The notes under the pieces were generated by a model, which ran no database searches, had not been told where the DNA came from, and was given only the letters and a program-made list of their open reading frames with translations. Below, one piece after another: positions 16,812 to 38,477 of a DNA stretch of 64,000 nt (positions are counted from its first letter, which is position 1; each line of letters opens with the position of its first letter). The position numbers were made by a program, and so were the translations under genes. Source of the stretch: Methanoregula boonei 6A8 (GTDB lineage: Archaea; Halobacteriota; Methanomicrobia; Methanomicrobiales; Methanospirillaceae); the NCBI RefSeq assembly GCF_000017625.1, contig NC_009712.1, positions 2,046,001 to 2,110,000 of the forward strand. Reading direction: 5' to 3'.

Positions 16812-18170
16812 TCAGAGCGGCCCGGTGAATTTTGTAATAATGTCTTCCATGAGCACGATGCCGCCACGGTACCCGGCATACGAGTGGTCGATAATCATCC
16901 GGTCGTTTATCGGGAACGAGACACTCAGGTGCAGCGCATCGTTAAACTCATCGGTAATGTACTTTTCAAGCGAGCTTGCGAGCAGGACTAAAAAACTCCT
17001 GCCCTTTAACAGCTGCCGGATCTTGTGCGTGTCCGACTCAAAGAAGATCTCGGGTTTCACCACGCAGTCGATGTGCTCATAAAGCTCGCGCAGGATCTCC
17101 GGGCGCTTTTCTTCCGGAGGATTATCCGTGATAATGGTAATATCCGGCAGGTACCCAACCTCGTTTGCGATATATTTCGTGATGCCGATTGCCGTAGCGC
17201 TGTCGCCGACGACTGCGGTGTACGAGTGTGGCATCCCGATAATCAGGGCATCTCCGAAATACTCCACGTTACGGTATGCCCTGCGCTCTTCAGCTGCGAC
17301 AACCTCCTTTACTTTTTTCTCCGGGATGCCAAGTTTTTCTGCCACGATGCCAAGCAGGGCCGTTGTCTGCTGGGGACCAACAGGTACGCTCGGGAAGGTG
17401 ACGTACGGCGTCCCAAACTTCTCCTCAAGCCTTTCTGCTATGCTGTGGCCAAGCCAGGGGTTAAGAACGAGGTTTAACTCGGCAGCCGGGATCCGTTTTA
17501 ATTTTTCCGGGCCGTCAAACTCGGTAAAGATCGTGTTTACCTCAACACCGATCTTGGCAAAGGTGTTTTTGAGTATCTCCAGATCCCCTTTCCAGAACAC
17601 GTGCTGGAATGGTACGACCCCGAGAATGTTGATGGTGCGCTTCTTCTTTTTTATGGGCACCAGGTACTGGTCGATCACGGCATTTAAGAATAATTCGTAC
17701 CCCTTGTACGTATTCCCGGAAAATCCCGGCGCGTTCACGTAAATGATGGGTATCCGGTTCTTCGTCTCCTCTTTGAATTCCCTGACCACGGATTCTACAT
17801 CGTCCCCGATAAGTGACGGTACGCAGCCGGTTATTACCACGAACAGGCTGCCATCCATCAGTTCAGTTGTAGATCTGATGAGTTTTCGCAGCCGGTCCTC
17901 TCCACCGAAGATAACATGCTGCTCCACCAGGGAAGTACAGGGTGTGCCGGTGCCGCCCTGCACACCCGGTGCGCTCTCGCCCGAGGTGTAGAACTGGCCG
18001 AAGAGCTGGGCGACCCCGCAGCCCCCTCCGGAATGCAGGACAGGTACCGCTCCATACACACCCAGCGTCGATGCATAGGCACCGGCAAGCGAACACGAAT
18101 ACCGGGGTGCCTCCTGGATATCATGGATATCGTCGCCTGATGATTCATTTTCAATGCCCGTTTCCGCCAT
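16812..18170 (-). CDS. Nitrogenase-like beta (K) subunit, copy 1
   Basis: NifK-type partner of the D subunit encoded just upstream (15-bp gap). 452 residues. It keeps P-cluster-type cysteines in PRYSCSLAGAY, GGGCGVAQLFGQF and ITGCVPSLIGDD, the NifK arrangement, plus a GTPCTSLVEQHVIFGG segment also found in the other two copies. LGVVPFQHVFWKGDLE is another shared block. Shorter than NifK (about 520) because the N-terminal extension is missing. Similarity to copies 2 and 3 is high throughout. Likely forms a D2K2 heterotetramer holding the interface Fe-S cluster; substrate unknown, methylthio-alkane reductase-type chemistry proposed. Confidence 0.85.
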   Translation of the reverse strand: MAETGIENESSGDDIHDIQEAPRYSCSLAGAYASTLGVYGAVPVLHSGGGCGVAQLFGQFYTSGESAPGVQGGTGTPCTSLVEQHVIFGGEDRLRKLIRSTTELMDGSLFVVITGCVPSLIGDDVESVVREFKEETKNRIPIIYVNAPGFSGNTYKGYELFLNAVIDQYLVPIKKKKRTINILGVVPFQHVFWKGDLEILKNTFAKIGVEVNTIFTEFDGPEKLKRIPAAELNLVLNPWLGHSIAERLEEKFGTPYVTFPSVPVGPQQTTALLGIVAEKLGIPEKKVKEVVAAEERRAYRNVEYFGDALIIGMPHSYTAVVGDSATAIGITKYIANEVGYLPDITIITDNPPEEKRPEILRELYEHIDCVVKPEIFFESDTHKIRQLLKGRSFLVLLASSLEKYITDEFNDALHLSVSFPINDRMIIDHSYAGYRGGIVLMEDIITKFTGPL

Positions 18171-18185
18171 TTTGCTCCTCCCTCT

Positions 18186-19724
18186 TTAGACAGCGTCCTT
18201 TTCGAGGTAGTAAAGCGGGTTGGGCTGCCTGAAGTACCAGTCCTTGTACCCGTACTGGGTCTTTTCGAGCATAGTTTTTTGCCAAGAGATACTTTTCATC
18301 CCCTGGAGCAGGAAGCTGCCATAGGCCACGGCTCCCGCATATGCGGTCTGCTGGCTCCACTTGAGATTATCGCACCGCACTGCATGGGTACGGGTAGCGC
18401 CTTTGTTCCGCTTGTAGGCACTTCCCTGGAACGGGCAGGTCAGCGTAATATCCGGGTTGAGCATTCTTGTGATATGAGCCTGTTCTGCAGCCTGGAAGGT
18501 ATTGACCAGGATGTTGAAATCCCCGACCTGGTCAACGACTTTTTCAAGGTCTTCCAGGATCAGGTTGTCATAATCCTGGGACAGGGCTGCTGATGACTTA
18601 ATGCCCAGTTCATCGAAGTACGGCAGTTGGGATAAGAGCCGGCCCTGGCCAAGGGCACCAAGCATCTCAATCTTCTTGCCGTTGCCCTTGAAGTTTTGGA
18701 GTTCTTTTCGGATAGCATCCATGCGGGGACCCCATTTCCTGTGTTCCTCTTCGATGACCGTCTCGGCCTCCCGTTCTTTTCCGGTGTACTCCGCGATCTT
18801 ACGGAGCCATTCGTCCGTATTCTGAAAACCTACCGGAGACGGGTACATGAAATAGGGTACGCCGTATTCCTGCTCCAGGCCCCGGGAGATATAGTCCGTA
18901 TAGGATGCACAGAGGGGAGCTGTTACCGCCGCCTCGGAGAGATCTTCGAGTTGCTGCACGCTTGCAAACTCCGGGACAAAATTCGGCCGCAGTCCCATTC
19001 TTTTTAAAATGCCGGTCATCTCCCTGCGATCCTGCCAGGTGTAGGAGAGCATGCTTGCGATATTGATTAAGTCATCCTGTTTCTTTTCAGGCTTTTTGAC
19101 CAGGTACTTTAATACGCCGTGCCAGAATGCATCGTAACCGGTTTGTACGAGTCTCGACCGGATGCCTTCGCAGTGGACCGGTACAATCTTTGCCTTGATG
19201 TGAGGTTGCATAGCGCTGACAGCGCCTTCAATGTCTTCTCCAATAATACCGGATGCACAGGAAGTGAGCACAAAGATTGCCCGGGGCTTATACCGCTCTT
19301 CGGCCACTCGTATGGCTTTTTTGAGTTTGTCACCGGCACCGTAGACAATGTCCTTCTCGGTAATTCCCGTTGTCAGCCAGTGGAGGTCAAAGGGAGGCCT
19401 GCCATCTGCTGCGGGTATATTGCGGAAGAGTTCCCTGTACCCAAGAGCTGACGCCGAGCAACCTACCGGCGCATGGAAAATGAGTACGGCATCCCGTATT
19501 GTGCTGATACGGATGGCAAGGTAAAAATTGAGGGCACACCCTGCTGATTGCTGGAATTTTCGCTCGCTCAATTTGAGATTGCCGGCTTTTGCATCTTTAA
19601 TTAACTGGGTAACCGGGCCATAGTACACGTTGATACCGTTGGCCCGATCCTCCCGGTTGGGGCAGGTCTTCTCTTCAAGATTTAGTTTTTTATCGCAGAT
19701 GTGGACGTCATTTTTTGATTGCAT
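18186..19724 (-). CDS. Nitrogenase-like alpha (D) subunit, copy 1
   Basis: NifD-type catalytic subunit, 512 residues. P-cluster-type cysteines are in SAGCALNFYL (C63), HAPVGCSASALGYRE (C89) and LTSCASGIIGEDIEG (C156). A cysteine in TAPLCASYTDYISRGLEQEY aligns with the cofactor-binding Cys275 of NifD, and a histidine in TRTHAVR with His442, so a metal cofactor site appears intact. CfbD of F430 synthesis and BchN would not pair with such a K subunit. First gene of the minus-strand operon D1-K1(-aminotransferase), driven by the two-box promoter at 19843-19908. Function as methylthio-alkane reductase-like enzyme is inferred. Confidence 0.85.
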   Translation of the reverse strand: MQSKNDVHICDKKLNLEEKTCPNREDRANGINVYYGPVTQLIKDAKAGNLKLSERKFQQSAGCALNFYLAIRISTIRDAVLIFHAPVGCSASALGYRELFRNIPAADGRPPFDLHWLTTGITEKDIVYGAGDKLKKAIRVAEERYKPRAIFVLTSCASGIIGEDIEGAVSAMQPHIKAKIVPVHCEGIRSRLVQTGYDAFWHGVLKYLVKKPEKKQDDLINIASMLSYTWQDRREMTGILKRMGLRPNFVPEFASVQQLEDLSEAAVTAPLCASYTDYISRGLEQEYGVPYFMYPSPVGFQNTDEWLRKIAEYTGKEREAETVIEEEHRKWGPRMDAIRKELQNFKGNGKKIEMLGALGQGRLLSQLPYFDELGIKSSAALSQDYDNLILEDLEKVVDQVGDFNILVNTFQAAEQAHITRMLNPDITLTCPFQGSAYKRNKGATRTHAVRCDNLKWSQQTAYAGAVAYGSFLLQGMKSISWQKTMLEKTQYGYKDWYFRQPNPLYYLEKDAV

Positions 19725-19842
19725 AAGATCTCCTCTTTTTTTACGTCAGCAGACTGTACAATTCGGGCGCCTTTGGCCGGGTTGCGGTACATTTTTTAGC
19801 CTGCTCTTGATGCGTTACTGTCGTCTTTTATGGGGGTGAAGT

Positions 19843-19908
19843 CATAAATACACAATGAAAAAAGCAATAATGGGGGGCATTATTCGGTTACCGGGAATAT
19901 CGCGGCAA
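19843..19908 (-). promoter_or_regulatory. Two-box promoter of the D1-K1 operon
   Basis: Minus strand: box 1 TTGCCGCGATATT begins at 19908, box 2 TTGCTT at 19867 (41 bp apart) and TATTTATG at 19850 (17 bp further). The predicted leader to the ATG at 19724 is about 100 nt. Confidence 0.65.
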
Positions 19909-20435
19909 TATCAGGTATTTTGATCCGGAAAAATGCCTTGCGCGATCTCATAATGACCTCTGCGACCGGAATATTTTCAGGAAACAGGGTACCAAAGGGA
20001 AGGCAACTGAGTATATTCTGGTCAAACGAATCCCGACATTGCTCCGATAAAGTACCCGGGTCTGCCTGACGTTAGGGTACATCCCCAAACCTCCCTATAT
20101 ATTAGTGCATTTCCCTCCATCCGGCCCCGGGTTTTGCCTTCCAAAAGCGTACAATAGCGTTTTTTTACATCCTCACAAAATCCCCGGTTTGCCAAAAAAT
20201 GCACGTAGGGGGTGATCCCGGAAATAGTGTGTAAAAGTGCACCGGTTTTTGCACCGGACTCCGGGAAAATGGTGTCCGGAGGGGTAATCCGGGGCCATAA
20301 CGGGCCCGAATTTTGGGGGTACTACTAGGGGGATCAGGCACGATCCGGTCATGGTGACCCTGATTAATGGCAGTGCACCCGGTGGCGGGTAGTTTTTTTG
20401 ATGAACGGGTACTGGCTGAAATGGTCATCGGTTCT

Positions 20436-20850
20436 CCGGAATCTTCAGCTCGTGACACACTCTTTAAAAAAAATCTTCAGCAGCTGAGTGACCGATTTTC
20501 CGGAATCTTCAGCTCGTGACACACTCTTTAAAAAAAATCCTCAGCTGCTGAGTGACCGATTTTCCGGAATCTTCAGCTCGTGACCCACTCTTTAAAAAAA
20601 ATCCTCAGCAGCTGATTGACCAATTTTCCGGAATCTTCAGTTCGTGATCCACTCTTTAAAAAAAATCATCAGCAGCTGAGTGACCGATTTTCCGGAATCT
20701 TCAGCTCGTGACACACTCTTTAAAAAAAATCCTCAGCTGCTGAGTGACCGATTTTCCGGAATCTTCAGCTCATGACACACTCTTTAAAAAAAATCATCAG
20801 CCGCTAAGTGACCGATTTTCCGGAATCTTCAGCTCATGACACACTCTTTT
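20436..20850 (-). repeat. Seven-unit 64-bp tandem repeat with a hairpin-T8 in each unit
   Basis: Units begin with CCGGAATCTTCAGCT at 20436, 20500, 20564, 20628, 20692, 20756 and 20820, always exactly 64 bp apart; the last is partial. Each unit is itself two diverged 32-bp halves (for example GGAATCTTCAGCTCGTGAC against AAAATCCTCAGCTGCTGAG). On the minus strand six units read as a short hairpin (CTCAG-CAG-CTGAG or variants) followed by GATTTTTTTT. The array starts about 120 bp after the stop of the minus-strand permease and lies before the D1-K1 promoter, so serial termination is a plausible role. There are no unique spacers, so it is not CRISPR. The remainder of 19909-20435 shows no gene. Confidence 0.85.
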
Positions 20851-20972
20851 TTTTAGTTGGATAACGGGCCGGGCCAAAAAAGAGGAGGTGTGGGACGGGC
20901 GCGAACAAACGCCCGTGGCCCCACCCTCACATTACCCCGTTTGAGAGTGTCCGGTATTTTTATGAAAATCTA

Positions 20973-22656: not shown

Positions 22657-22691
22657 ATTTCTCCGCAGTGATCCGGATTTCCTGCAAAATC

Positions 22692-23244: not shown

Positions 23245-24378
23245 TCACACAACTCCTTTTTCCCGGAGTGCATCGTGCAACAGGGAGTTCCCATCGCAGA
23301 GGTAGCAGTGGTTCCGGGTGCCTGCAGGGACCTTATGCTCACGGACAATCTCCGCCGCCTCGCGGTTAGTCTGTGCGTACCATTCTGCAAATGGGGCGCG
23401 ATGGCCGTACAATTTCGAGCCGGGGTTCGGGGACCAGACAAACGGGATTACGTTTGCTCCCAGTTCCGAGATAGCATTCACGCCGGCAAGGAAGTTCTCT
23501 TTTGGTTCCAGGCCCAGAACAAAGATCGTATACACATTGCCTTCACCGAAGACCTCCACTGCTTTTTTTATGTTTTCCACAAACTCATCATGCGATGTGC
23601 CCGCAGCCTTCCCCGGGCAGATTGCCTCGTAGTATTTTTTGTCCCAGACTTCCATGGCAAAGCAGAGTGACCCAATCCCGGTCTCGTAGAACTTCTGGAT
23701 CGCTTCTCCTTTGGCCGGCGAGGGAAGAAGGGTTCCTGGCACCGAATCAAAGCCCGTGTGCTCCCGGATCGAGGATAGGATCTCCGAAACGATCTCAATC
23801 TCCCGCTTCAGGGAGATGCACCCACCGGTGAGGTTGACGTGGTTGGTGTCGCCTTCCGCCCATGCAGCTTTCACAACTTCTCCCACTTCAACCGGGTCCT
23901 TTCTTCTCATGACCGAGTTGTACACATCTGAGGTGGAGACCAGGTTGCAGAAGGCGCACTGTTGTTTTTTGGCAAAATGGGAGCAGTAGTTCTGGTAGCA
24001 GAAAAAGAGGCAGTCCTGCCCGCCGAGCTGCCCGATCTTTATCATGTCGTTTCCCTTTGTGGTCTTTTCTGTGTAATACCGGGGCCGCCGCAGCCATTTC
24101 ACCTCGCAGATCCGCTGCTCGTTATGGTGCAGGTGCAGCCTGCCATCCTCGGGCACCACGTGGTACGGTGAACGCGAATTCTTGCGGTACTGCACCACGG
24201 TCCCGTCGGGGAGGGTGAAGTCATCGGGGAGTTTCTGCTCGGTGTGGTTTTCAAAATCCCAGCCAAAGAGACCGTGGTTCTGCTCTTTGTACCGGGTCCC
24301 GACCTCTGCAACGCTTGCAGGATCTGACCGTATCCCCTCGGTGACAAGGGCCGCCTTTAGTAACAGGTAATCTTCCAT
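23245..24378 (-). CDS. Radical SAM protein with spaced cluster motif
   Basis: 377 residues from ATG 24378 (MEDYLLLKAALV), chosen because GGAG precedes it by 8 nt. The SAM-cluster cysteines are probably in YCSHFAKKQQCAFCN, a C-x8-C-x2-C arrangement rather than the classical C-x3-C-x2-C, with two more cysteines just before (CLFFCYQNYC). HVNLTGGCISLKREIE is the SAM-binding GGE-like segment, and HCYLCDGNSLLHDAL near the end may bind a further cluster. It lies between two nitrogenase-like D/K pairs and downstream of the AnfO-like gene on the same strand, so cofactor assembly or substrate handling is plausible. It does not look like canonical NifB, which has the C-x3-C-x2-C motif. Confidence 0.75.
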   Translation of the reverse strand: MEDYLLLKAALVTEGIRSDPASVAEVGTRYKEQNHGLFGWDFENHTEQKLPDDFTLPDGTVVQYRKNSRSPYHVVPEDGRLHLHHNEQRICEVKWLRRPRYYTEKTTKGNDMIKIGQLGGQDCLFFCYQNYCSHFAKKQQCAFCNLVSTSDVYNSVMRRKDPVEVGEVVKAAWAEGDTNHVNLTGGCISLKREIEIVSEILSSIREHTGFDSVPGTLLPSPAKGEAIQKFYETGIGSLCFAMEVWDKKYYEAICPGKAAGTSHDEFVENIKKAVEVFGEGNVYTIFVLGLEPKENFLAGVNAISELGANVIPFVWSPNPGSKLYGHRAPFAEWYAQTNREAAEIVREHKVPAGTRNHCYLCDGNSLLHDALREKGVV

Positions 24379-24396
24379 GGGATGCTCTCCGGATCG

Positions 24397-24437
24397 TATC
24401 AGAATATCTGGGAAATGACGGGCATAATATTCTGATA
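24397..24437. promoter_or_regulatory. 10-bp inverted repeat just upstream of the radical SAM gene
   Basis: TATCAGAATA (24397-24406) and TATTCTGATA (24428-24437) are perfect inverted arms with a 21-nt spacer, 19 bp before the start codon at 24378. It could form a leader hairpin over the ribosome site or be an operator. The 320-bp gap up to 24698 otherwise shows no feature I can support. Confidence 0.4.
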
Positions 24438-24698
24438 TCTGGGCAATCCTTGCCCGTAGTCTCCGTCTTTTGCACACATACTTCCGCTCAAACCCAACAT
24501 TTTGCCGGGTCTTTGTAGTCAGTACATTGCAGAGGGATGCAGGCAGGAATGCCCGGGTTCGATACAGAAAAAAAGATCGGGGTTCCCCCGGAGTTCACGA
24601 TCAGAATGGTGCAACAATGACGCTTGGGAATATCCTCAAGCAGGATGCAACCCGGTCCTGGTAATTACGTAACAACTCCACAAATGGAATGAACCACC

Positions 24699-25340
24699 TT
24701 ATTTTGACTTTTTCAGCACCACCCTGACCTCGTGGGGAGCATGGTGTCTGGTCTCAATCATAAGCCCAAGGAAATCTGCCTCGACTCCAATCCAGGGTGG
24801 CAGATGTTCGCAGAATAGTTCAAGCTCGGTAAAACGGGAACTGCGGATAAACTGCTGGAGCACCTGCTTGCTGCTCACACCGGAACGTTTTCTCTGGATC
24901 TCTGTAATCGACACCGTGAATTTACCGGGTGCCGTTTCAAGCGGGACGGGTATACCGGCGTTACCGGAATCCGGCCGGGGCTGGGGACACGCTTCCTGTT
25001 TGTCGTTATCTTTTGCTTCCAGGCAGACGGAGTCGAGGAATTCTTCCGGTTGACCTGCAACTTCCCACACATGGCAGCGGGCTCGTGCAAGTTCGGAGTA
25101 AACAGCTCCGTTTGCCGACTGTGCAACAAAGGTACGGCAATCCCCAAGAAAGGTAACAAGCTCCGCTACTTTCCGGTGCAGTCCCTGCAATCCTTTTCCG
25201 GGTTCAAGAGCGAAAGGAAACGTCCTTTGGCTCTGCCACACCCCATGGCTGCGCTGAAAAATAACGATTGTCCCCGGACCGGTGAGGGGAACAGTCCGGC
25301 CATTCTCCCCGATAATTACCGCAATCTCTGAAATGCCCAT
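24699..25340 (-). CDS. AnfO-like nitrogenase accessory protein
   Basis: 213 residues. The N-terminal half (IAVIIGENGRTVPLTGPGTI, then QRTFPFALEPGKGLQGLHRKV, LGDCRTFVA and VWEVAGQPEEFLDSV) and the C-terminal half (PGKFTVSITEIQ, GVSSKQVLQQFI, FTELELFCEHLPPWI) match the two blocks of AnfO, the protein encoded with Fe-only nitrogenase. In this copy the two halves are joined by a low-complexity linker (about 115-135). It lies 91 bp downstream of K2 on the same strand. AnfO is thought to assist Fe-only nitrogenase function, so its presence supports a real metallocluster enzyme here. Assignment rests on recalled family pattern, not a search. Confidence 0.75.
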   Translation of the reverse strand: MGISEIAVIIGENGRTVPLTGPGTIVIFQRSHGVWQSQRTFPFALEPGKGLQGLHRKVAELVTFLGDCRTFVAQSANGAVYSELARARCHVWEVAGQPEEFLDSVCLEAKDNDKQEACPQPRPDSGNAGIPVPLETAPGKFTVSITEIQRKRSGVSSKQVLQQFIRSSRFTELELFCEHLPPWIGVEADFLGLMIETRHHAPHEVRVVLKKSK

Positions 25341-25431: not shown

Positions 25432-26784
25432 TCACAGGGGCCCGGCAAATTTGCTCATGAAGTCCTCTGCAAGGAAGAGCCCTCCTTTATACCCGGCATA
25501 GGAGTGCTCCAGGATGAGCCGGTCAAATGAGGGGAATGCCACGGTCAGGGGGATTGCCCCAAATTCGGCAAGGGAGATCGGAGATTCCAGGGAACTCGCA
25601 AACAGGAAGAGTGAATTCCGGTTTTTCAGATTCTGCCTGATACGGTAGGAATCCACCTCAAAGACGATCTCCGGTTTCACCGGTGTTTCGAGGGTCTCGA
25701 GCAGTTCCCTGCGGATGAGATCGCGCTTATCCTCATGGGGATCGTCTGCGATCTGCACGATCTCCGGGAGATACCCGAGTTCGTTTGCCAGGAATTTCGT
25801 GATACTGATTGCGGTACTGCTGTCTGCAACGACCGAGAAATACGCATGGGGCCGGACAAGAGTGAGGATATCCCCCAGGTACTCGGTGAACCGGTATGCC
25901 CGCTTCTCCCGCTCTTCAATAACCTTCTCGACGGTCTTTGCCGGTACCCTTAGTTTCTTACCAACAACACGGAGGAATTCCGAGCTCTGCTTGGGACCGA
26001 TGGGGACCCCGGGGAATGCAATGAACGGGGTTTTGAACTTCTCCTTGAGTTTCTCTGCGGTTTCGTGCCCTACCCAGGGCGAGAGCACAATATTGTATTC
26101 CGCCGCGGGAATGCTTTTGAGGGCTTCAACGGAATCGAACCGGGTAAAGATGATATTGGGTTTCAGGCCGATTGATTCAAGGAGTTCCCTGATAACGTCC
26201 AGATCTCCTTTCCAGAACAGGTGCTGGTACGGCACTATGCCAAAGATATTGACCTGCCCTTTCACTTTTGTCTGGGGTGTGAGGAACTGGTCAATGAGCG
26301 ATTCAAAAAACAGCTCGTATCCCTGGTAGGAATTTCCTGAGAATCCGGCAGCCTTTATAGAGATGATTGGCACCTTATCACGGAATTCCTTTACCACGGA
26401 TTCAGTGTCATCTCCAATGAGTGAAGGGATACATCCCGAGATTACCGCGTAAAACTGCCCGTTTACGAGTTCAACACTGGATTCTATCAGGTTCCGGAGT
26501 TTCTTCTCCCCACCGAAGATGACATGCTCCTCAATAAGGGAGGAGCAGGGTGTGGAAGTCCCTCCTACCGGGCCTCCGGCATTCTGCCCCCCGCCATAGA
26601 ACTGACCGAAAAGCTGGCCAATTCCGCAACCCGCTCCTGAATGAAGGATCGGAACCGCCCCATACAGACCAACCGCGGTTGAGTACGCTCCCGCAAGGGC
26701 GCAGGAGAACCGCGGAGCTTCCAGGGCATCAGATGCCGGGAGATCCACAGCGGAGGATACTTTTGCTTGTACTGCTTTTGTCAT
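25432..26784 (-). CDS. Nitrogenase-like beta (K) subunit, copy 2
   Basis: 450 residues from ATG 26784 (MTKAVQAKVSS), which overlaps the stop of D2 (ATGA), so translation is coupled. P-cluster-type cysteines are in PRFSCALAGAY, GAGCGIGQLFGQF and ISGCIPSLIGDD; STPCSSLIEEHVIFGG is conserved with copies 1 and 3. NIFGIVPYQHLFWKGDLD matches the block shared by all copies. Copy 2 is the only pair with an AnfO-like gene directly downstream. Likely a D2K2 partner; substrate unknown. Confidence 0.85.
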   Translation of the reverse strand: MTKAVQAKVSSAVDLPASDALEAPRFSCALAGAYSTAVGLYGAVPILHSGAGCGIGQLFGQFYGGGQNAGGPVGGTSTPCSSLIEEHVIFGGEKKLRNLIESSVELVNGQFYAVISGCIPSLIGDDTESVVKEFRDKVPIISIKAAGFSGNSYQGYELFFESLIDQFLTPQTKVKGQVNIFGIVPYQHLFWKGDLDVIRELLESIGLKPNIIFTRFDSVEALKSIPAAEYNIVLSPWVGHETAEKLKEKFKTPFIAFPGVPIGPKQSSEFLRVVGKKLRVPAKTVEKVIEEREKRAYRFTEYLGDILTLVRPHAYFSVVADSSTAISITKFLANELGYLPEIVQIADDPHEDKRDLIRRELLETLETPVKPEIVFEVDSYRIRQNLKNRNSLFLFASSLESPISLAEFGAIPLTVAFPSFDRLILEHSYAGYKGGLFLAEDFMSKFAGPL

Positions 26785-29349: not shown

Positions 29350-30537
29350 ATGTTTGGACTTATTGCCCGTAGTATTATTCACCGCCCGGTAAGAAACGGG
29401 GCCCTCATTCTGGCGTTTGCCTTCATAGCTGCAAGCCTCTTCTCCAGTCACTACCTGCTCGCCGGTGCTTCAGACAGTGTGAAATCCGAAATTGCGAAAC
29501 TGGGGGCAGATATCATTGTAGTGCCTCAGGAGTATACCGCTGACAGCGAGGCGGTTCTCCTCAGGGGAGAACCCTCCACATTCTTTTTTAATGATTCTGT
29601 GGTCCCCCTCATCAGGAATGTCTCCGGTGTTCAACAGGTTGAACCACAGATCTTTATTGCGACCCTTTCCGCGAGCTGCTGCTCCCTTCCGGTTCAGCTC
29701 ATTGCCATTGATCCCACCCAGGATTTTACGATTACCCCCTGGCTCGAAGCAAACCAGCAGAAACCGCTTGGTCAGGACGAAATCATAGTCGGGAATAAAA
29801 TAGTGCCCCAGGTCGGGTCCAATCTTACGTTTTATGGTCACACTTTCAGGATCGTGGGAAAACTCGATCCCACGGGGACCGGACTGGATACCTCGATATT
29901 TCTCCGTACTGCTGACGCATATACGATGGCAGAGGAGTCAAATAAAACCGCGGTAAAGCCGCTTGTCCTTCCCAAGGGTGTTGCGTCTGCCGTACTTGTA
30001 CAGGTGAATGACGCCGCCGAGACGACCAATGTGTCCTATCGCATCGTAGAGCAGGTTCCCGGAACAAGAGTACTCACTTCATCGGCCCTGGTCAGCACGG
30101 TATCCGATCAACTGGCAGGAATTACGCAGATTCTTGATCTCTCTGCGCTTGTCGCCACGCTCATTTCCCTGCCCCTGATTGCCCTGATATCGCTGATGGT
30201 AGTAAATGAACGCCGGCGGGAGATTGGGGTGTTGCGGGCCCTTGGGGCTACACGGGCAATGATATTCCGTCTTATCCTCGGGGAATCGGTTATTATTGCA
30301 GCGATCGGGGGCATCCTGGGGATTGCATCATCCTGGATCATTCTCATACTGTTCCAGGGTTATATTGCAGAGGTCACCCGTATCCCCCTCTCCATGCCGG
30401 TTATATCATCCCTTGGATACATTTCTGCTCTCACCCTCATTGTGACCGTGGCAGTTGGCGGTCTTGCAGCGCTCTACCCTGCCGTGCGGAGTGCACTCAT
30501 CGAACCCTATGAAGCGATACGGAGCGGTGAACTATGA
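29350..30537 (+). CDS. FtsX/MacB-type ABC permease
   Basis: 395 residues with the FtsX/MacB layout: one N-terminal membrane segment (GALILAFAFIAASLFSSHYL), a large external domain (about 45-255), then three C-terminal membrane segments ending SLGYISALTLIVTVAVGGL. The external domain has a vicinal cysteine pair (SASCCSLPVQLIAIDP), matched by PCCSDFVQIIAIDP in the paralogue at 40344-41579. The gene sits between DUF4418 and its ATPase with a 4-bp overlap to the latter. Such systems move lipoproteins or peptides, or transmit force, rather than import solutes. Confidence 0.88.
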   Translation: MFGLIARSIIHRPVRNGALILAFAFIAASLFSSHYLLAGASDSVKSEIAKLGADIIVVPQEYTADSEAVLLRGEPSTFFFNDSVVPLIRNVSGVQQVEPQIFIATLSASCCSLPVQLIAIDPTQDFTITPWLEANQQKPLGQDEIIVGNKIVPQVGSNLTFYGHTFRIVGKLDPTGTGLDTSIFLRTADAYTMAEESNKTAVKPLVLPKGVASAVLVQVNDAAETTNVSYRIVEQVPGTRVLTSSALVSTVSDQLAGITQILDLSALVATLISLPLIALISLMVVNERRREIGVLRALGATRAMIFRLILGESVIIAAIGGILGIASSWIILILFQGYIAEVTRIPLSMPVISSLGYISALTLIVTVAVGGLAALYPAVRSALIEPYEAIRSGEL

Positions 30538-31214
30538 TCGAAGCCAGAGGTCTTGTAAAGACCTATTATGACGGGGAACGGGAAATCCGGCCGCTTAACG
30601 GGACGGACTTTGTCTGCAGCGCCGGAGAGTTTGTCCTTATTGTGGGCAGATCAGGGTCCGGGAAAACAACGCTCCTGAATGTCATTGGCGGGCTGACCCG
30701 ACCGACTACGGGGAGCGTACAGGTTGTGGGAAAGGATATCCTGGCATTATCCGATGCAGAATGTGCGGCCCTGAGATCCCGCAACATCGGATTTGTTTTC
30801 CAGTTCCCGGGGCTGCTCTCTACACTTTCTGCCCGGGAGAATGTTGCATTGTCAGGAGAGATTGCGGGAACTACCGGAAAGCATGCCAGTAACGAACGGG
30901 CCAGTAATCTCCTTGCACGTGTCGGCCTTGGGGAAAAAGCAGACAGCCCCCCCTCGCATCTCTCCGGAGGGGAACTCAAACGGACCGCCATTGCCCGGGC
31001 GCTCATGAACCATCCCTCACTCCTCCTCGCAGATGAACCGACTGCAGATCTTGATGGGGATACAGAACGGGAAGTAATGGAACTGTTCCGAGAAATTAAC
31101 CGGGAGGGCACGACCATCATCATGGTAACCCATAATATGGACATCGCATCGTATGCCTCCCGCGTTGTGCGCATGGAAAAGGGCAAACTCGTTCCGGTCG
31201 AGCTGGTGAAATAG
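30534..31214 (+). CDS. LolD/MacB-type ABC transporter ATPase
   Basis: 226-residue nucleotide-binding subunit. Walker A GRSGSGKTTLLN (about residue 38), Q-loop in NIGFVFQFPGLLSTLSAREN, signature LSGGELKRTAIARALM, Walker B SLLLADEPTADLD and switch His in MVTHNMD are all intact. It starts inside the permease stop (ATGA overlap). Partner of the FtsX-type permease; the second FtsX-type permease at 40344 has no ATPase of its own in the window and might share this one. Confidence 0.92.
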   Translation: MIEARGLVKTYYDGEREIRPLNGTDFVCSAGEFVLIVGRSGSGKTTLLNVIGGLTRPTTGSVQVVGKDILALSDAECAALRSRNIGFVFQFPGLLSTLSARENVALSGEIAGTTGKHASNERASNLLARVGLGEKADSPPSHLSGGELKRTAIARALMNHPSLLLADEPTADLDGDTEREVMELFREINREGTTIIMVTHNMDIASYASRVVRMEKGKLVPVELVK

Positions 31215-31374: not shown

Positions 31375-31393
31375 ATCGCACTATTTGTGCGAT
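31375..31393 (+). promoter_or_regulatory. Inverted repeat ATCGCAC-N5-GTGCGAT before the nifH-like gene
   Basis: Perfect 7-bp arms with a 5-nt spacer, ending 2 bp before box 1 of the two-box promoter. It is absent from the other two-box promoters, so it may bind an extra regulator of the single reductase gene. The stretch from 31215 to 31374 shows nothing I can support. Confidence 0.45.
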
Positions 31394-31459: not shown

Positions 31460-31492
31460 CCTCGGGGAGAGAGAGTAATTTAAGGATTCGTT

Positions 31493-32467: not shown

Positions 32468-32471
32468 TAGT

Positions 32472-34022
32472 ATGACAAAAAACCAGGCACCTCATCTTGT
32501 CAATGAACAGATCAATCTTGCTGATGCAACCTGCCCGAACCGCGAGGAGCGGGCACACGGGATCAATGTGTACTATGGAAAAGCATCTGAACTCCTGCGT
32601 GATGCCAGGAGTGGAAACCTCAAACAGGTTGACCGCAAATTCCAGCAGACCTCAGGCTGCACACTGAACTTCTACCTGACAGTCCGGGTCAACACCATCC
32701 GGGATGCTGCCATTGTTTACCATGCGCCGGTCGGTTGCTCTTGCCCGTCTCTCGGGTACCGTGAGCTGTTCCAGCACATCCCGACAAGCATGGGCATGCC
32801 CGAGAATTACGATCTTCACTGGCTGACCACCAGCATGAACGAGAAGGATATGGTCTATGGGTCTACGGACAAGCTCAAGGCTGCAATTCTTGAGGCACAG
32901 CGCCGTTACGATCCCAAGGCGATCTTCGTCCTGACTTCCTGTGCATCGGGAATCATCGGTGAGGATATAGAAGGGGCAGTTAACGAGGTCCAGCCAAAGG
33001 TACGTGGACGGATCGTTCCCATCCATTGCGAGGGTATACGATCGCGGCTGGTGCAGACCGGGTACGATGCGTTCTGGCATGCCGTCCTGAAGTACCTTGT
33101 GAAAAAACCGCAGAAGAAACAGAAAGACCTGGTCAATGTTGCAAGCATGCTTTCGTATACCTGGCAGGACAGGCTTGAGATCAAGAGACTCCTTGGGAAG
33201 ATGGGGCTGCGGGTAAACTATGTGCCGGAGTTCGCGTCCGTGGAACAGTTCGAGCAGCTCTCGGAAGCCGCGGTGACGGCACCATTGTGCCCTACCTACA
33301 CCGATTACCTCTCCCGGGGACTCGAACAGGAATACGGTGTGCCGTTCTTCATGTACCCGTCACCGATGGGATTTTCCGGTACCGACGGCTGGCTTCGGGA
33401 GATAGGAAAATACACGGGTAAGGAGAAAGAGGCCGAAGTGGTCATTGCAGAAGAGCACAGGAAATGGGACCCGAAACTCGCGGCGATCCAGGAAGAGTTC
33501 CTTCATATCAAGCCAAACGGGGAGAAAGTGGAAGTGCTCGGCGCACTCGGCCAGGGGCGGCTGCTTGCACAGGTGCCGTACTTCGATGAACTCGGGGTCA
33601 AATCATCAGCCGCGATGTGCCAGGACTATGATAACCTCATCATTGACGAGTTGGAAAAAGTGATCGCGCAGGTCGGAGACTTCGATATCCTGGTCAACAC
33701 GTTCCAGGCTGCCGAGCAGACCCATATCAACCGGATTCTCGACCCGGACATGACGCTTACGTGCCCGTTCCAAGGAAGCGCCTACAAGCGCCTGAAAGGC
33801 GTTACCCGTGTACACGCACTCCGGGGTGACCCGAACCTCTGGGCCCAGCAGAGCGCCTATGCCGGTGCTGTTGCGTACGGGAATTTCCTGCTCCAGGCAT
33901 TCAAGAGCAGATCCCTCCAACAGACCATGAAAGAGAAGACTGCGGACAACTACAAGGCCTGGTACTTTGAACAGGACAATCCGCTCTACTTCAGGGACAA
34001 CGACGAACCGGTGGTCTCGTGA
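32472..34022 (+). CDS. Nitrogenase-like alpha (D) subunit, copy 3
   Basis: 516 residues. Cysteines at 63, 89 and 157 (TSGCTLNFYL, HAPVGCSCPSLGYRE, LTSCASGIIGEDIEG) correspond in spacing to Cys62, 88 and 154 of Azotobacter NifD. C273 (APLCPTYTDYLSRG) and H448 (TRVHALRGDP) correspond to cofactor ligands Cys275 and His442. This makes an active-site metallocluster likely. The product overlaps K3 by 4 bp. The combination H-D-K, no NifEN and a sulfur setting suits the methylthio-alkane reductase family (MarHDK of Rhodospirillum rubrum), which cleaves C-S bonds of thioethers to methanethiol; the exact substrate is inference. Confidence 0.87.
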   Translation: MTKNQAPHLVNEQINLADATCPNREERAHGINVYYGKASELLRDARSGNLKQVDRKFQQTSGCTLNFYLTVRVNTIRDAAIVYHAPVGCSCPSLGYRELFQHIPTSMGMPENYDLHWLTTSMNEKDMVYGSTDKLKAAILEAQRRYDPKAIFVLTSCASGIIGEDIEGAVNEVQPKVRGRIVPIHCEGIRSRLVQTGYDAFWHAVLKYLVKKPQKKQKDLVNVASMLSYTWQDRLEIKRLLGKMGLRVNYVPEFASVEQFEQLSEAAVTAPLCPTYTDYLSRGLEQEYGVPFFMYPSPMGFSGTDGWLREIGKYTGKEKEAEVVIAEEHRKWDPKLAAIQEEFLHIKPNGEKVEVLGALGQGRLLAQVPYFDELGVKSSAAMCQDYDNLIIDELEKVIAQVGDFDILVNTFQAAEQTHINRILDPDMTLTCPFQGSAYKRLKGVTRVHALRGDPNLWAQQSAYAGAVAYGNFLLQAFKSRSLQQTMKEKTADNYKAWYFEQDNPLYFRDNDEPVVS

Positions 34023-35365
34023 CAGAAGCAGAAACCGTACCTCAGGATATTGATACCCGGTACCCCGAGGTTGTGGAGGCACCGCGGTGGACCTGCTCAC
34101 TTGGGGGAGCATACATTACGAGTACCGGGGTCTACGGAGTAGTCCCCATCCTCCATGCCGGGGCAGGCTGTGGCATTGCTCAACTGCTTGGCGTGTACTA
34201 TGCAGCGGGTGAGAATGCTGCCGGCGGGCAGGGCGGGACGAGCACTCCCTGTTCATGCCTTATCGAGAAGCACGTGATCTTCGGCGGGGAGGACAAACTC
34301 CGGAAGCTGATCGATTCAACGATCCAGCTGATGGAGGGCGATCTCTACGTGGTAATCTCCGGGTGTGTCCCGGCGCTGATCGGAGACGACGTTGACTCCG
34401 TAGTCAGGGAGTTCAAAGGGAAAGCAGATGTCATCTTTGTTAATACCGCCGGGTTCAAGGGCAACACGTTCGATGGCTACGAGGAGTTCCTAGGTGCGGT
34501 CATTGACCAGTTCCTGGAACCAAGGAAAAAGAAGAAGAAGGTTGTCAACATCCTCGGGGTCGTTCCCTTCCAGCACGTCTTCTGGAAAGGCGACCTCAAT
34601 GTCGTCAAGAACCTGTTGGCAAAGATCGGCGTGGAGGCAAATATCCTCTTCACCCAGTTCGATGGCGTCAAAAAACTCAAAGAGATTCCGGAAGCGGAAC
34701 TCAACATCGTCCTTTCCACCTGGAACGGGCACAAGGCTGCCGGAAAACTCAAAGAGAGATTCGGCCAGGAATACCTGACGTTCCCAAGCCCGCCAATCGG
34801 GCCGAAGCAGACGTCAGAATTCCTCCGCTCCGTGGCAAAGAAACTCAGGATCCCCAAAAAGGATGTGGAACGGGTCATCGCAGAGGAAGAGCGGCACGTA
34901 TACCGGTTCACCGAGTACCTGACCGATGCAATCATCATAGGCCTTCCCCATCCGTACGCAGCCTTTGTCGGGGATTCCAACACCGTAATTGGCATTGCAA
35001 AATACCTTGCAAACGAGGTCGGGTACCTTCCCGAGGTGGTGCAGATTACCGATGAACCCCCCGAGGAAGCCCGGGAGTGGATCCGGCGGGAGCTGACCGA
35101 GAACATCGAGTCCACGATCAAACCGGATATCCTCTTCGAGAAAGACACGTTCCGGATCCGTGAGAACCTGCGGGACAGGAGTTTCCAAGTCATGCTCGCC
35201 ACCTCGCTTGAAAAGTGGCCTGCGGCAAAGGAATTCGGCGTTGCCCACCTGAGTGTTGGTTTCCCGATGTACGATCGCGTTATCGTTGACCGGAACTATG
35301 CCGGGTACAGAGGCGGGCTTGCTCTTCTGGAAGACCTCATCGCCAAATATGTCGGCCCTCTTTAA
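34019..35365 (+). CDS. Nitrogenase-like beta (K) subunit, copy 3
   Basis: 448 residues, start GTG 34019 overlapping the D3 stop (GTGA). Cysteines C26 (PRWTCSLGGAY), C51 (GAGCGIAQLL) and C116 (ISGCVPALIGDD) fit the NifK P-cluster pattern; the C26-C51 spacing of 25 equals that of NifK Cys70-Cys95. TPCSCLIEKHVIFGG has an extra cysteine compared with copies 1 and 2. The NILGVVPFQHVFWKGDL block is shared. A T8 tract follows the stop. Confidence 0.87.
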   Translation: MTEAETVPQDIDTRYPEVVEAPRWTCSLGGAYITSTGVYGVVPILHAGAGCGIAQLLGVYYAAGENAAGGQGGTSTPCSCLIEKHVIFGGEDKLRKLIDSTIQLMEGDLYVVISGCVPALIGDDVDSVVREFKGKADVIFVNTAGFKGNTFDGYEEFLGAVIDQFLEPRKKKKKVVNILGVVPFQHVFWKGDLNVVKNLLAKIGVEANILFTQFDGVKKLKEIPEAELNIVLSTWNGHKAAGKLKERFGQEYLTFPSPPIGPKQTSEFLRSVAKKLRIPKKDVERVIAEEERHVYRFTEYLTDAIIIGLPHPYAAFVGDSNTVIGIAKYLANEVGYLPEVVQITDEPPEEAREWIRRELTENIESTIKPDILFEKDTFRIRENLRDRSFQVMLATSLEKWPAAKEFGVAHLSVGFPMYDRVIVDRNYAGYRGGLALLEDLIAKYVGPL

Positions 35366-35378
35366 AAAAATCCATCTG

Positions 35379-35386
35379 TTTTTTTT
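35379..35386 (+). terminator. T8 tract after K3
   Basis: Eight T shortly after the K3 stop, before the separate two-box promoter of the ABC importer; consistent with archaeal termination. Confidence 0.45.
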
Positions 35387-35432
35387 GCAACAGCGGCCGG
35401 ATCCCGGATTCTGATAGTGAAGTTTTGAAAAA

Positions 35433-35498
35433 TTGCCGATATCATGAGGGTTTTTAGGAAATTCTGCCAGATTTTGCTGGTTTATTAACCACCATATT
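35433..35498 (+). promoter_or_regulatory. Two-box promoter of the ABC importer operon
   Basis: Box 1 TTGCCGATAT at 35433, box 2 TTGCTGGTTTATTAA at 35474 (41 bp apart). The TATA function may be TTTATTAA at 35481 or CATATTG at 35493 (19 bp after box 2). The leader to ATG 35612 is about 95 nt. Confidence 0.6.
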
Positions 35499-35611
35499 GT
35501 GTCCTGCCCTATGAAGTTAGGGGAGATCTATGCAACCAGGGATCACTCTGACAAAAGAAGGGAATTAATCCAGAGAGAATTTGAGAAAAAAACCACGAGT
35601 TTGAGGGAATT

Positions 35612-36499
35612 ATGTCGAAGATCGAAGCAGTGGACGTAACAAAATCGTTCACCTCCCGGGGGACCGGAAAAACCGGATCCAACGGGAACCATACGGAAAC
35701 ACAGGCACTGGGGGGGGTAAACCTTACTATCAGTACAGGTGAATTTCACGTGATTCTGGGGCCCAGCGGGTGCGGCAAATCGACGTTTCTTGATATCGTC
35801 GCCGGGCTGTCAACACCTACTTCCGGTGAGATCCGAATCGATGGCAAGCCGGTCATCGGTCCGGGTACGGATCGTGCCGTTGTCTTTCAGCAGTATGCCC
35901 TGCTCCCGTGGAGGACTGCTCTTGGCAACGTGGAGTTCGGCCTTGAGAATATCGAATCCGACAAGAAAGAGCGTGTGCGGATAGCCACGAACTTCCTCTC
36001 CCTTGTCGGCCTGAGCGGTTTCCAGGACCACTATCCCCACGAACTGAGCGGGGGCATGAAACAGCGGGTCGCCATTGCGCGGGCACTTGCCCTTCATCCC
36101 GATATCCTGCTCATGGACGAGCCGTTTGCCGCGGTGGATGCCCAGACCCGGGAGATCCTCCAGCGCGACCTCCTGAGAATCGCTATTGAAACCCAAAAAA
36201 CCGTCCTGTTCATCACCCATAGTATCGATGAGGCGGTCTTCCTCGCAGACAGGGTGTCCGTGATGACAGCACGCCCGGGGAGAATCAAACAGACCGTTGA
36301 AGTTCCCCTGACCCGTGCCGAGCGGCTTGACGAGGATGTAAAAGTTTCAGATGCCTATGTAAAGACCAGACACTATCTCTGGACGCTTCTCAAGGAAGAG
36401 GTAATCCGGTCTCAGGACGTATGCGGCAAATGCTCTGTGGAGACCTGCACGTTCGGCCACCGGGTCACCGCGGGAGGTGCCGATGACCACGGAAACTGA
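35612..36499 (+). CDS. Nitrate/sulfonate/taurine-type ABC transporter ATPase with Cys-rich tail
   Basis: 295-residue ATPase of the SsuB/TauB/NrtD family. Walker A GPSGCGKSTFLD, Q-loop VVFQQYALLPWRTALGN, signature ELSGGMKQRVAIARALA, Walker B DILLMDEPFAAVD and switch His FITHSIDEAV are present. An unusual C-terminal extension ends with VCGKCSVETCTFGH (C-x2-C-x4-C-x3-H), a possible metal or cluster site. Operon: ATPase, permease (overlap), binding protein. The two-box promoter shared with the nitrogenase-like genes suggests the cargo is a substrate of those enzymes, such as a sulfonate or thioether. Confidence 0.9.
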   Translation: MSKIEAVDVTKSFTSRGTGKTGSNGNHTETQALGGVNLTISTGEFHVILGPSGCGKSTFLDIVAGLSTPTSGEIRIDGKPVIGPGTDRAVVFQQYALLPWRTALGNVEFGLENIESDKKERVRIATNFLSLVGLSGFQDHYPHELSGGMKQRVAIARALALHPDILLMDEPFAAVDAQTREILQRDLLRIAIETQKTVLFITHSIDEAVFLADRVSVMTARPGRIKQTVEVPLTRAERLDEDVKVSDAYVKTRHYLWTLLKEEVIRSQDVCGKCSVETCTFGHRVTAGGADDHGN

Positions 36500-37319
36500 T
36501 GCAGGTGCACCTGTCCGGCAGAACTGGATCGGAAACGGGTGTTCCTCACTGGGAAACTGCTCCCGTAAATTCATCCACGTAACGGGTGCCATCTTCGTTT
36601 TCCTGCTTATCTGGCAACTGGCGCCCTATTTCGGGTTGATCAATCCTATCATTATCCCCGTGCCGACAACGATCCTCCAGAAGATGATCCAGCTGACGCT
36701 CTCGGGAGAACTCCTCACGAATATCGCAGTCAGCCTGGGCCGGGTACTGGTCGGGTTTTTTATCGCCCTTGCGGTGGCACTCCCGCTTGGATTCCTGCTG
36801 GGGGGCTGGTTCAAGTCCTTTGAAACTGCCGTAAACCCCCTACTCCAGGTACTGGGCCAGGCAAACCCGTTCACGCTCTTCCCGGTCTTCATCACCCTTC
36901 TCGGAATCGGTGAGCTCTCCAAGATCAGTATCATCTTCTGGGTCTGCCAGTGGCCGGTGCTCTTCAACACGGTCTCCGGTATCAAGAATGTGGACCCGGC
37001 GATCGTGAAGATGGCCCGGTCCATGGGGATCGGAAAGTGGCAGATGTTCAGGAAGGTGCTCCTTCCGGCAGCAATGCCCTCGGTCTTCACCGGGATCCGC
37101 ATGAGCGCAGTTTTCGCATTCTTCATGCTGATCGGCGCAGAGATGATTGGCGCAAGCTCCGGGCTCGGGTACATGATCCTCCAGGCACAGGCTACCTTTC
37201 AGATGCCCAAGATGTGGGTCGGGATCGTAACAGTTGCCTTCCTGGGTATCCTGTTCAACTGGATACTCCTCCAGATCGAGAAGAAATTCTCCGGCTGGAA
37301 AGAAGAACTTGTAATGTAA
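36483..37319 (+). CDS. ABC transporter permease, nitrate/sulfonate/taurine type
   Basis: 278 residues from ATG 36483, which has GGGAGG five bases before it; an in-frame GTG at 36477 is the alternative. Six hydrophobic segments, starting FIHVTGAIFVFLLIWQLAPYF; the coupling loop is NVDPAIVKMARSMGIGKWQMFRKVLLPAAMPSVFTGIR, split here as MARSMGIGKWQMF and LLPAAMPSVFTG, the EAA motif of this family. It overlaps the ATPase by 17 bp. Confidence 0.9.
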   Translation: MTTETDAGAPVRQNWIGNGCSSLGNCSRKFIHVTGAIFVFLLIWQLAPYFGLINPIIIPVPTTILQKMIQLTLSGELLTNIAVSLGRVLVGFFIALAVALPLGFLLGGWFKSFETAVNPLLQVLGQANPFTLFPVFITLLGIGELSKISIIFWVCQWPVLFNTVSGIKNVDPAIVKMARSMGIGKWQMFRKVLLPAAMPSVFTGIRMSAVFAFFMLIGAEMIGASSGLGYMILQAQATFQMPKMWVGIVTVAFLGILFNWILLQIEKKFSGWKEELVM

Positions 37320-37337
37320 CTTTAAGGTGATTATCAC

Positions 37338-38477
37338 ATGACTCCAAAATTTCACAACAGGAAAAAAGAGCTTGCCGTAATAGCGGCAGTATCCCTCTTC
37401 ATCCTGCTTTTCCTCATTATTGCAGGATGCACACAGAATAGCAGCAGCACGAACTCCGCAGGATCCTCCGGTGCAGTAGCCTCGGTTTCATCCGGGGTAA
37501 ATTCTTCCTTCTACACGATCCGGGCAAACGTGAATAAGGACTGCTCGGGAACTCCCTGGTATGTCGGCGTGATGAAAGGCTATTTTGTTAGCGGCGGCAT
37601 TAATTTCGTTGACGCCGGTGCCCTTGACTGGTCTCTCCAGCCGGCAGCTCTCGTCTCCGGACAGACCGACGTGGTGGATGAACACCCCAACACGCTCATC
37701 GATCTTAAGCTTGCAGGAGCCAATGTCACTGGTGTCGCACTCAGCGGGCAGGAACCCCCTGAGGGCGATATAAGTGAATACCACATGCAATGGCTGGTTC
37801 TCAACAGCAGTCCCTACTATACGATTCAGGATCTCGTTGCAAACGGTCACAAGCCAAAGATTGCCGTCGGTGCACTGGGTATCTGTGCGGACCTGGAGAA
37901 TAACGCATGGTTCCGTGCGAATAACCTATCAAACACGAGTTTCCAGTACGTCATAATGCCCGATCCGCAGCAGGAAGCAGCTCTCCGTTCCGGACAGATC
38001 GATGTTGCAGTCCTCCACCCGCCATTCTATACAGCGGCTGAAAAACATGGCGGTGTCCGGGTCATTACGACTAGTTATGATGCATTCGGACCGCAGGCGG
38101 GTACAACCCTGCTTGTCTTCAGAGATGCTGACATCCAGGAACACCCGGATGATGTAAGAGCGTTCATTAAAGCGTACAAGAATGCGGAGAGATGGTCTGA
38201 CAACCACCTGACAGAATCCGGTATACTGACTGCCGGTGTCATAGGGCTTTCCAATGCAACTCCTCACTACTACAGTCAATCGGGTGCAATTACGGATGAC
38301 GAGATCCAGCCGTGGATAGACGCAATGGTTGCAGACGGTGACATTGCGCCGGGACAGTTCAAACCCTCGGATCTGTATACGACTGAGTTTAGCGATACGT
38401 GGGTAAATGAAACCGCGGTCAATGGACCGGATCCGGTTGATCCCTTCCCGAGCCTGGAAAAGAGCACATACGACTGA
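37338..38477 (+). CDS. ABC transporter substrate-binding lipoprotein
   Basis: 379 residues. N-terminal signal VIAAVSLFILLFLIIAGCTQ ends in a lipobox with C31, so it is anchored outside the membrane. The mature part is an NMT1/THI5/SsuA-like periplasmic-binding fold: GTPWYVGVMKGYF, VSGQTDVVDEHPNTLIDL, ALRSGQIDVAVLHPPF. The motif order fits the nitrate/sulfonate/taurine family. The ligand is not readable; co-regulation argues for an organosulfur compound (inference). Confidence 0.88.
   Translation: MTPKFHNRKKELAVIAAVSLFILLFLIIAGCTQNSSSTNSAGSSGAVASVSSGVNSSFYTIRANVNKDCSGTPWYVGVMKGYFVSGGINFVDAGALDWSLQPAALVSGQTDVVDEHPNTLIDLKLAGANVTGVALSGQEPPEGDISEYHMQWLVLNSSPYYTIQDLVANGHKPKIAVGALGICADLENNAWFRANNLSNTSFQYVIMPDPQQEAALRSGQIDVAVLHPPFYTAAEKHGGVRVITTSYDAFGPQAGTTLLVFRDADIQEHPDDVRAFIKAYKNAERWSDNHLTESGILTAGVIGLSNATPHYYSQSGAITDDEIQPWIDAMVADGDIAPGQFKPSDLYTTEFSDTWVNETAVNGPDPVDPFPSLEKSTYD

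Follow-up and report, generated by a model that had tools for sequence, protein, structure and literature searches.

Three nitrogenase-like D/K pairs and a single Fe protein gene in Methanoregula boonei belong to an apparently uncharacterised sister clade of methylthio-alkane reductase

Introduction

Methylthio-alkane reductase (Mar) of Rhodospirillum rubrum (PDB entries 9fmg and 9d9u) has been presented as the only nitrogenase-like enzyme described with big iron-sulfur clusters (PMC12552129). Here we report on nitrogenase-like genes of the methanogen Methanoregula boonei 6A8, located in a stretch of 64,000 nucleotides (the window; bases 2046001-2110000 of the single-contig genome of 2,542,943 bases). 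The window encodes three pairs of NifD/NifK-like catalytic subunits (D1/K1, D2/K2 and D3/K3) and one NifH-like Fe protein (H). Its genes share with Mar the H-D-K composition, the six P-cluster cysteines, the Fe1 cysteine, the fold and a setting in sulfur assimilation. They differ from Mar in that no NifB or MarB gene lies in the window and three pairs of one subtype accompany one H. The D and K proteins represent an apparently uncharacterised clade, the closest sister of Mar.

Isethionate reductase (Isr), encoded by IsrBHDK in Rhodobacter capsulatus, likewise belongs to group IV of the nitrogenase family and has an SsuABC-type importer in its locus; as described in PMC11423573, IsrD keeps one of the three P-cluster cysteines and neither ligand of the iron-molybdenum cofactor. 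The heliobacterium Heliophilum fasciatum has five NflDK pairs and one Fe protein gene (PMC9147875). Its NflDK1 groups with NfaDK and its NflDK5 with MarDK, and pairs 2-4 are given there without a known role, whereas the three pairs of the window are of one subtype. MarHDK-like 'group IV-A' genes also occur in or near type I mlp clusters, together with a UroD-family methyltransferase and sulfur genes (PMC10418091). Three loci of the window clade (L052, L060 and L063) carry UroD-family genes like the mlp clusters; an overlap of the window clade with the mlp-cluster genes is likely, and the consulted parts of that paper do not split off the window clade. Methanogens depend on NifB, and their [Fe8S9C] clusters serve the activation of methyl-coenzyme M reductase (MCR), according to PMC12176620. 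In a search of open-licence papers, which covered Mar, Isr and Nfa as the named group IV systems, we found no description of the clade or of the M. boonei genes of the window. Published trees may well contain clade members without a label, e.g., in the Cys275-bearing, His442-lacking group of PMC3464626.

Results

A preliminary description of the window had proposed an expanded Mar-type system with a single Fe protein for three catalytic pairs. The three D/K pairs, the single Fe protein, an importer and cysteine/methionine genes were all found where it had placed them. To place the proteins, 84,980 genomes were scanned, which gave 343 stretches encoding a relative; the best 80 were kept and correspond to 79 loci. 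Tree rows had to hold at least 430 amino acids for D, 390 for K and 240 for H, which leaves truncated copies (e.g., at loci L090 and L100) uncounted, and merging of identical or overlapping copies reduced the D rows from 124 to 108. In the resulting tree, all three window D proteins fall inside a clade with 76 members, and MarD belongs to a separate set of 19 proteins. A tree of 52 D rows, hand-picked to span all types and rooted on NifD and NifE, recovered the window clade (18 rows) and the Mar clade (17 rows) with a support of 100/100 each and as sisters with 99/94; the other group IV types fall outside the two. The K tree, based on an alignment without one K of locus L105 and the K of locus L002, shows a matching split from Mar. 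The window D proteins did not cluster with NifE or CfbD in these trees, which contained no BchNB.

Among the best 80 of the 343 stretches, the clade occurs in methanogens, methanotrophic archaea, Geobacteraceae, Sporomusa and many uncultured anaerobes. Methanobrevibacter cuticularis, Sporomusa silvacetica and Geotalea toluenoxydans are cultured carriers, so the clade is open to testing. In the phylum of a Desulfotomaculum metagenome-assembled genome (MAG), 14 of 398 genomes match at 1e-60, two of them being clade members (~880 bits).

Sequence searches of the PDB and comparison of folds identified R. rubrum MarHDK as the closest characterised relative of H, D3 and K3. D3 matched MarD with 248 bits (next other protein, 103) and K3 matched MarK with 293 bits (next, 77). 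An AlphaFold model of D3, calculated from a 41-row alignment with a mean predicted local distance difference test score (pLDDT) of 86.6, superimposes on MarD (9fmg_A) with a Z score of 40.2 and 2.1 Å over 457 residues and on the second Mar entry (9d9u_A) with Z 32.6. Nitrogenase, NifE and BchB-type chains make up the remaining 48 of the 50 entries shown and score Z 28.2-30.2; Foldseek likewise ranks the Mar entries first. Against CfbD models, the window D and K proteins reached 36.5 to 58 bits, below the cut-off of 268. Within the window, identity to D3 is 68-69% for D1 and 72-73% for D2, and identity to K3 is 61% for K1 and 56% for K2.

We read the residues listed in PMC12552129 by MarD numbering, all twelve being verified on the right letters. 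The D-side P-cluster cysteines (Cys66, 91 and 158) and the Fe1 ligand Cys270 are present in 76/76 members of the window clade and 19/19 of the Mar clade. On the K side, the three P-cluster cysteines are kept in 65/66, 66/66 and 66/66 proteins tied to a clade D; a further 19 K proteins without an assigned D partner were excluded from this count and have Cys at all three sites. In contrast, Trp195, His375, Arg428 and His429 of Mar are found in 19/19 Mar-clade proteins and in 0/76 of the window clade. Arg428 and His429 on Loop I have been proposed as a possible hallmark of Mar (PMC12552129). Mar is the closest characterised relative, but the Mar-type assignment of the preliminary description is not supported, as the D proteins form a separate sister clade without these four residues.

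The window clade has conserved residues of its own, namely Arg72, His185, Gln195 and His448 in 76/76, Arg451 and Asp453 in 75/76, and Cys431 and Arg446 in 73/76 proteins. His448, Arg451 and Asp453 belong to an inserted loop by which the clade differs from Mar. A profile alignment (hhalign), with a NifD profile of two sequences only, places His448 on NifD His442, where MarD has Gly. Mo-nitrogenase NifHDK has in common with the window proteins the P-cluster, Cys275 and possibly the His442 ligand position. The window D proteins, by contrast, are 22-24% identical to the host's own NifD, and the N2 pocket residues are not kept: Val70, Gln191 and His195 are replaced by Thr/Ser/Ala-Arg, Val/Ile/Met and Tyr, respectively, in the 65 members of the main group. 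The 11 deeper members have other residues, with no Gln at the 191 place and no His at the 195 place.

The preliminary description had called the system expanded. Local tandem duplication was rejected as the origin of the three pairs, as approximately unbiased (AU) tests exclude trees that hold the window D proteins together (p 3.9e-101) and likewise the K proteins (1.7e-37). D3 and K3 pair with the Methanosarcina MAG Chersky.3_35, and D1 and K1 with Methanoperedenaceae FeB_1, in both the D and K trees. The relatives of D2 are found in species of Methanosarcina and in a single MAG with the label Planctomycetota (94 in the 108-row tree, 96/95 in the AU-test tree); K2 groups similarly but more weakly, with 86 in the K tree and no starred set in the K AU-test tree. 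At E 1e-40, the family was detected in 0/35 other genomes of the genus, many of which are incomplete; at 1e-60, it was present in 10/391 other genomes sampled across the phylum, with the best three candidates per genome scored. Since the joint trees are rejected, the pairs have distinct nearest relatives in other methane-cycling archaea and the occurrence is patchy, the data point to separate gains by gene transfer, with the subunits travelling as pairs. Broken D copies with several in-frame stops occur in two Methanosarcina genomes (L014/L017 in G371; L126 in G431), so the system also gets lost.

As the preliminary description had it, a single Fe protein stands beside the three catalytic pairs. 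Its best PDB match is MarH (9fmg_D, 428 bits), compared to 286 bits for the best NifH. H is 67.9% identical to MarH, 48.7% to the host's own NifH and 51.1% to its own CfbC, and reaches 361 bits against the CfbC model, below the cut-off of 402. The palindrome upstream of H (Table 1) occurs once in the genome as an exact copy, and six sites match it with two mismatches.

The features of the window are listed in Table 1; the six D/K genes match PF00148 with E values of 1.7e-66 to 3.1e-77. NifE, NifN and NifB, reported as missing in the preliminary description, are indeed absent from the window; elsewhere in the genome, a nifH-D-K-E-N locus spans 1144751-1152184 and NifB lies at 632938-633753. Two NifD peptides printed for M. 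boonei in PMC2700964 are contained in the NifD of this genome. Genome-wide, PF00148 has 13 matches, i.e., nifD, K, E and N, the six window genes, a pair beside CfbC, and CfbD. PF00142 has seven, three strong (335-418 bits; NifH, CfbC and the window H) and four weak (23-37 bits), and CfbC passes NF033200 with 418 bits at a cut-off of 402.

Table 1 Features of the window, in window coordinates.
Feature	Position	Strand	Evidence and remarks
Cysteine synthase CysK	1096-2025	-	TIGR01139 457 bits, cut-off 351
Cystathionine beta-synthase (CBS)/cysteine synthase-like enzyme	7447-8427	+	PF00291; cystathionine beta-synthase model 462 bits, cut-off 510
Cys/Met pyridoxal phosphate (PLP) enzyme, cystathionine lyase/synthase family	8429-9589	+	PF01053 496 bits
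Cysteinyl-tRNA synthetase (CysRS)	9800		one of the Cys/Met genes
O-acetylhomoserine sulfhydrylase	12685-14088	+	TIGR01326 657 bits, cut-off 495
Cys/Met PLP enzyme, methionine gamma-lyase/cystathionine gamma-synthase family	14009-15499	+	models below cut-off
K1, NifK/MarK-like	16812-18170	-	PF00148 259.6 bits
D1, NifD/MarD-like	18186-19724	-	PF00148 227 bits; groups with Methanoperedenaceae D of locus L035, 100/99
Variant radical S-adenosylmethionine (SAM) protein	23245-24477	-	NF045502 354 bits
AnfO-family accessory protein, directly downstream of K2	24699-25340	-	PF09582 204 bits
K2	25432-26784	-	PF00148; open frame extends to 26838, start set by alignment
D2	26781-28328	-	PF00148; open frame extends to 28490, start codon 28326-28328 set by alignment
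ABC-type pair of other kind	29350-31214		permease FtsX/MacB by profile; ATPase read by eye
Perfect 7+7 palindrome, 5-base spacer, possible operator	31375-31393		100 bp upstream of H
H, NifH/MarH-like Fe protein, 324 amino acids	31493-32467	+	PF00142 334.5 bits
D3, NifD/MarD-like catalytic subunit	32472-34022	+	PF00148; PDB search
K3, NifK/MarK-like	34019-35365	+	PF00148; PDB search
Importer ATPase, nitrate/taurine/sulfonate class	35612-36499	+	nearest NCBIfam ntrCD, taurine, SaoA, all below cut-off
Importer permease, SaoP/SsuC/TauC class	36477-37319	+	PF00528; NCBIfam SaoP, SsuC, TauC, NtrB all below cut-off
Importer binding protein, NMT1 family	37338-38477	+	PF13379, PF09084; no NCBIfam model at 1e-20

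The importer and the Cys/Met enzymes around the pairs bear out the sulfur-assimilation setting described before. The importer (35612-38477) is probably of the SsuABC class, every specific NCBIfam model staying below its cut-off; the best PDB match of its binding protein is the aliphatic sulphonate-binding protein 2x26 (E 8.1e-5), and the host genome has five NMT1 matches in 2.54 Mb, including this one. AnfO is an accessory protein of Fe-nitrogenase; the only other copy in the genome lies in the nif locus, and none was present at the other loci covered. The variant radical SAM protein is possibly a helper enzyme, and homologues stand beside nitrogenase-like genes at loci L032 and L087.

We counted the genes lying within 8 kb of each of the 76 D genes of the clade, D1-D3 among them; the sequence spanned the whole 16 kb for 33/76. 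H was found near 58/76, an importer binding protein or permease (NMT1-linked families) near 35/76, a sulfhydrylase or cysteine synthase near 19/76, NifX near 21/76 and a NifB-family radical SAM gene near 8/76. On a Chlorohelix plasmid, the order importer - NifB-like - H - D - K (window clade) is followed ~7 kb on by NifB - NifX - H - D - K (Mar clade); the first NifB-like radical SAM gene scores 338.1 bits, just below the NifB cut-off of 343.65. Both kinds appear to be linked to the product of NifB, and the plasmid nevertheless retains the two next to each other.

Copies were counted over whole genomes in 11 named genomes. The island of Sporomusa sp. KB1 (G425 C1:2888177-2971188, ~83 kb) holds nine D and nine K of several subtypes, among them one D that is 80% identical to MarD and one of the window clade, as well as many NMT1-type importer genes; a Fe protein is absent inside the island. 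The 58 kb examined of the Methanoperedenaceae FeB_1 contig PQAS01000057 (loci L035 and L087) hold four D, four K and one H, the four subtypes including two within the window clade. NifX, several importers and a protein homologous to the variant radical SAM protein of the window are encoded there as well. FeB_1 and Heliophilum thus also combine several pairs with one Fe protein; the unusual feature of the window is that its three pairs belong to one main subtype. The runners-up among the loci examined have two copies of the same subtype (Methanothrix OWC_0023 and a Methanovirga MAG), possibly also Methanobrevibacter filiformis and Myxococcales fen_1139, in which second copies are cut off.

Discussion

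On balance, we lean towards the view that the window encodes members of an uncharacterised group of [Fe8S9C]-type organosulfur reductases, with one Fe protein serving three catalytic components. Each D/K pair would assemble into a (DK)2 tetramer with P-clusters, and D would hold an [Fe8S9C]-type cluster made by the host NifB, bound via Cys273 and probably His448 (or Cys431). The single MarH-like H would feed ATP-driven electrons to all three tetramers, which might differ in substrate and would cleave C-S bonds in organosulfur compounds of a polar or anionic kind, imported in part by the SsuABC-class importer. The sulfide or thiol released would then enter homocysteine, methionine and cysteine through the sulfhydrylase and the Cys/Met enzymes. 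A scaffold that accepts the cluster without NifEN would need few extra genes, as the host makes [Fe8S9C] anyway. The machinery of Mar likewise consists of an Fe protein, a P-cluster and an [Fe8S9C] cluster. The conserved Arg and Gln in the altered second sphere suggest a more polar or anionic substrate; this substrate class we infer, and Mar-clade genes have such importers too.

A more specific picture is possible but doubtful: a Mar-like scaffold in which an inserted, mobile loop would supply His448 as the ligand of the distal iron, at the same position as in nitrogenase. The scaffold would be arginine-lined for anionic organosulfur compounds and be used in the form of interchangeable modules. 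Examples of such modules would be the three separately acquired pairs with one H described here, four pairs with one H in Methanoperedenaceae, and as many as nine D and nine K in Sporomusa. The NifD-like His448 ligand is to be taken as a lead, not as a result.

An Isr-like sulfonate reductase, in which the importer would supply a sulfonate and D/K release sulfite, would agree with the SsuABC-class importer adjoining K3, with Arg72 (76/76), Arg451 (75/76) and Arg446 (73/76), which would suit an anion, with the precedent of Isr as a group IV system with SsuCAB (PMC11423573), and with three NIR_SIR genes in the host genome. We nevertheless consider it unlikely. The proteins are not Isr itself, as Cys275 and two of the three P-cluster cysteines are missing from IsrD (PMC11423573) but have their equivalents in the window clade (76/76), and the window has no radical SAM gene directly before H. 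Searching near the clade genes with the host's own sulfite reductases (phmmer) gave weak matches only (E 1e-8 or worse) in the loci covered, the island loci L136-L151 being left out. Moreover, O-acetylhomoserine sulfhydrylase takes sulfide or thiols, not sulfite, which counts against this rival. Less probable still are true methylthio-alkane reductases that free methanethiol from dimethyl sulfide or 2-methylthioethanol. The nearest characterised relative by sequence and fold, an H that is 68% identical to MarH and the sulfhydrylase nearby would all fit; against this stand the separate clade, the four Mar residues (0/76 vs 19/19) and the presence of both types together in Chlorohelix, Sporomusa KB1 and Bryobacterales fen_298, which speaks for distinct functions. 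Because the clade lacks the four Mar residues, branches apart from Mar and does not follow the cysteine pattern of Isr, we count it as a variant and as neither of the two; it may work like Mar without being equated with it.

That the genes encode alternative nitrogenases of group IV-A (NfaHDK) reducing N2 seems very unlikely to us. The Cys275 equivalent, a His at or near the His442 place and AnfO beside K2 are in line with such a role, and, according to PMC9147875, Endomicrobium proavitum has group IV genes only and still incorporates 15N2; however, the equivalents of Val70, Gln191 and His195 are lost, the host has nifHDKEN elsewhere, and the neighbourhood is one of sulfur, not nitrogen. A function as NifEN-like scaffolds for cluster assembly, rather than as enzymes, we regard as scarcely credible, since the host's own NifEN exist, D falls with Mar and not with NifE, and an importer and sulfur genes surround the pairs; low-level similarity to NifE models and the AnfO gene beside K2 are what speaks for it.

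Several observations weigh against an [Fe8S9C]-type organosulfur reductase group with a shared Fe protein. Importers are more frequent beside Mar-clade genes (13/18) than beside those of the window clade (35/76), so the importer cannot tell substrates apart; tried as a guide to the substrate, it fails to separate the two clades. In a MAFFT multiple alignment, His448 lies two columns from NifD His442, and its loop is the least certain part of the D3 model (residues 435-439 and 441-450 under pLDDT 50). Mar and most other group IV types on the tree carry the Loop I histidine, so a NifD-type ligand in the window clade would be regained or convergent. The islands contain 16 D proteins that do not belong to the window clade; 14/16 have a His at the Loop I position of Mar or at the preceding residue, the two exceptions being in Methanoperedenaceae. 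In a weakly resolved tree, the H proteins do not group according to the type of their D/K partners; the H of the window-clade set and the H of the Mar set of Chlorohelix are mutual neighbours in it. Upstream of D1, D2 and H, no common operator was found, apart from single 14-mers with one mismatch between some region pairs. The presence of NifB proves little as well, given that it is retained in methanogens for MCR activation (PMC12176620).

The sister clade would be a second nitrogenase-like group with big iron-sulfur clusters after Mar. It would bear on how the protein surroundings affect cluster chemistry and how the second cluster ligand changes in evolution, and on how anaerobes obtain sulfur from organic matter by routes so far hidden.

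Additional observations

Further, apparently unassigned group IV D subtypes (L167, L157, L156, L168, L176, L101, L018 and others), which lie outside both Mar and the window clade in the 52-row tree, have a His one residue before the place of Mar His429. At C1:2155649-2158572 of the host genome, CfbC is followed by an unassigned D/K-like pair, and CfbD lies 0.7 Mb from CfbC, flanked by genes that resemble CfbE and CfbB by eye. In the gap beyond the start of D1, an identical stem-loop with a T-rich tail occurs twice (20540-20552 and 20732-20744), 192 bp apart.

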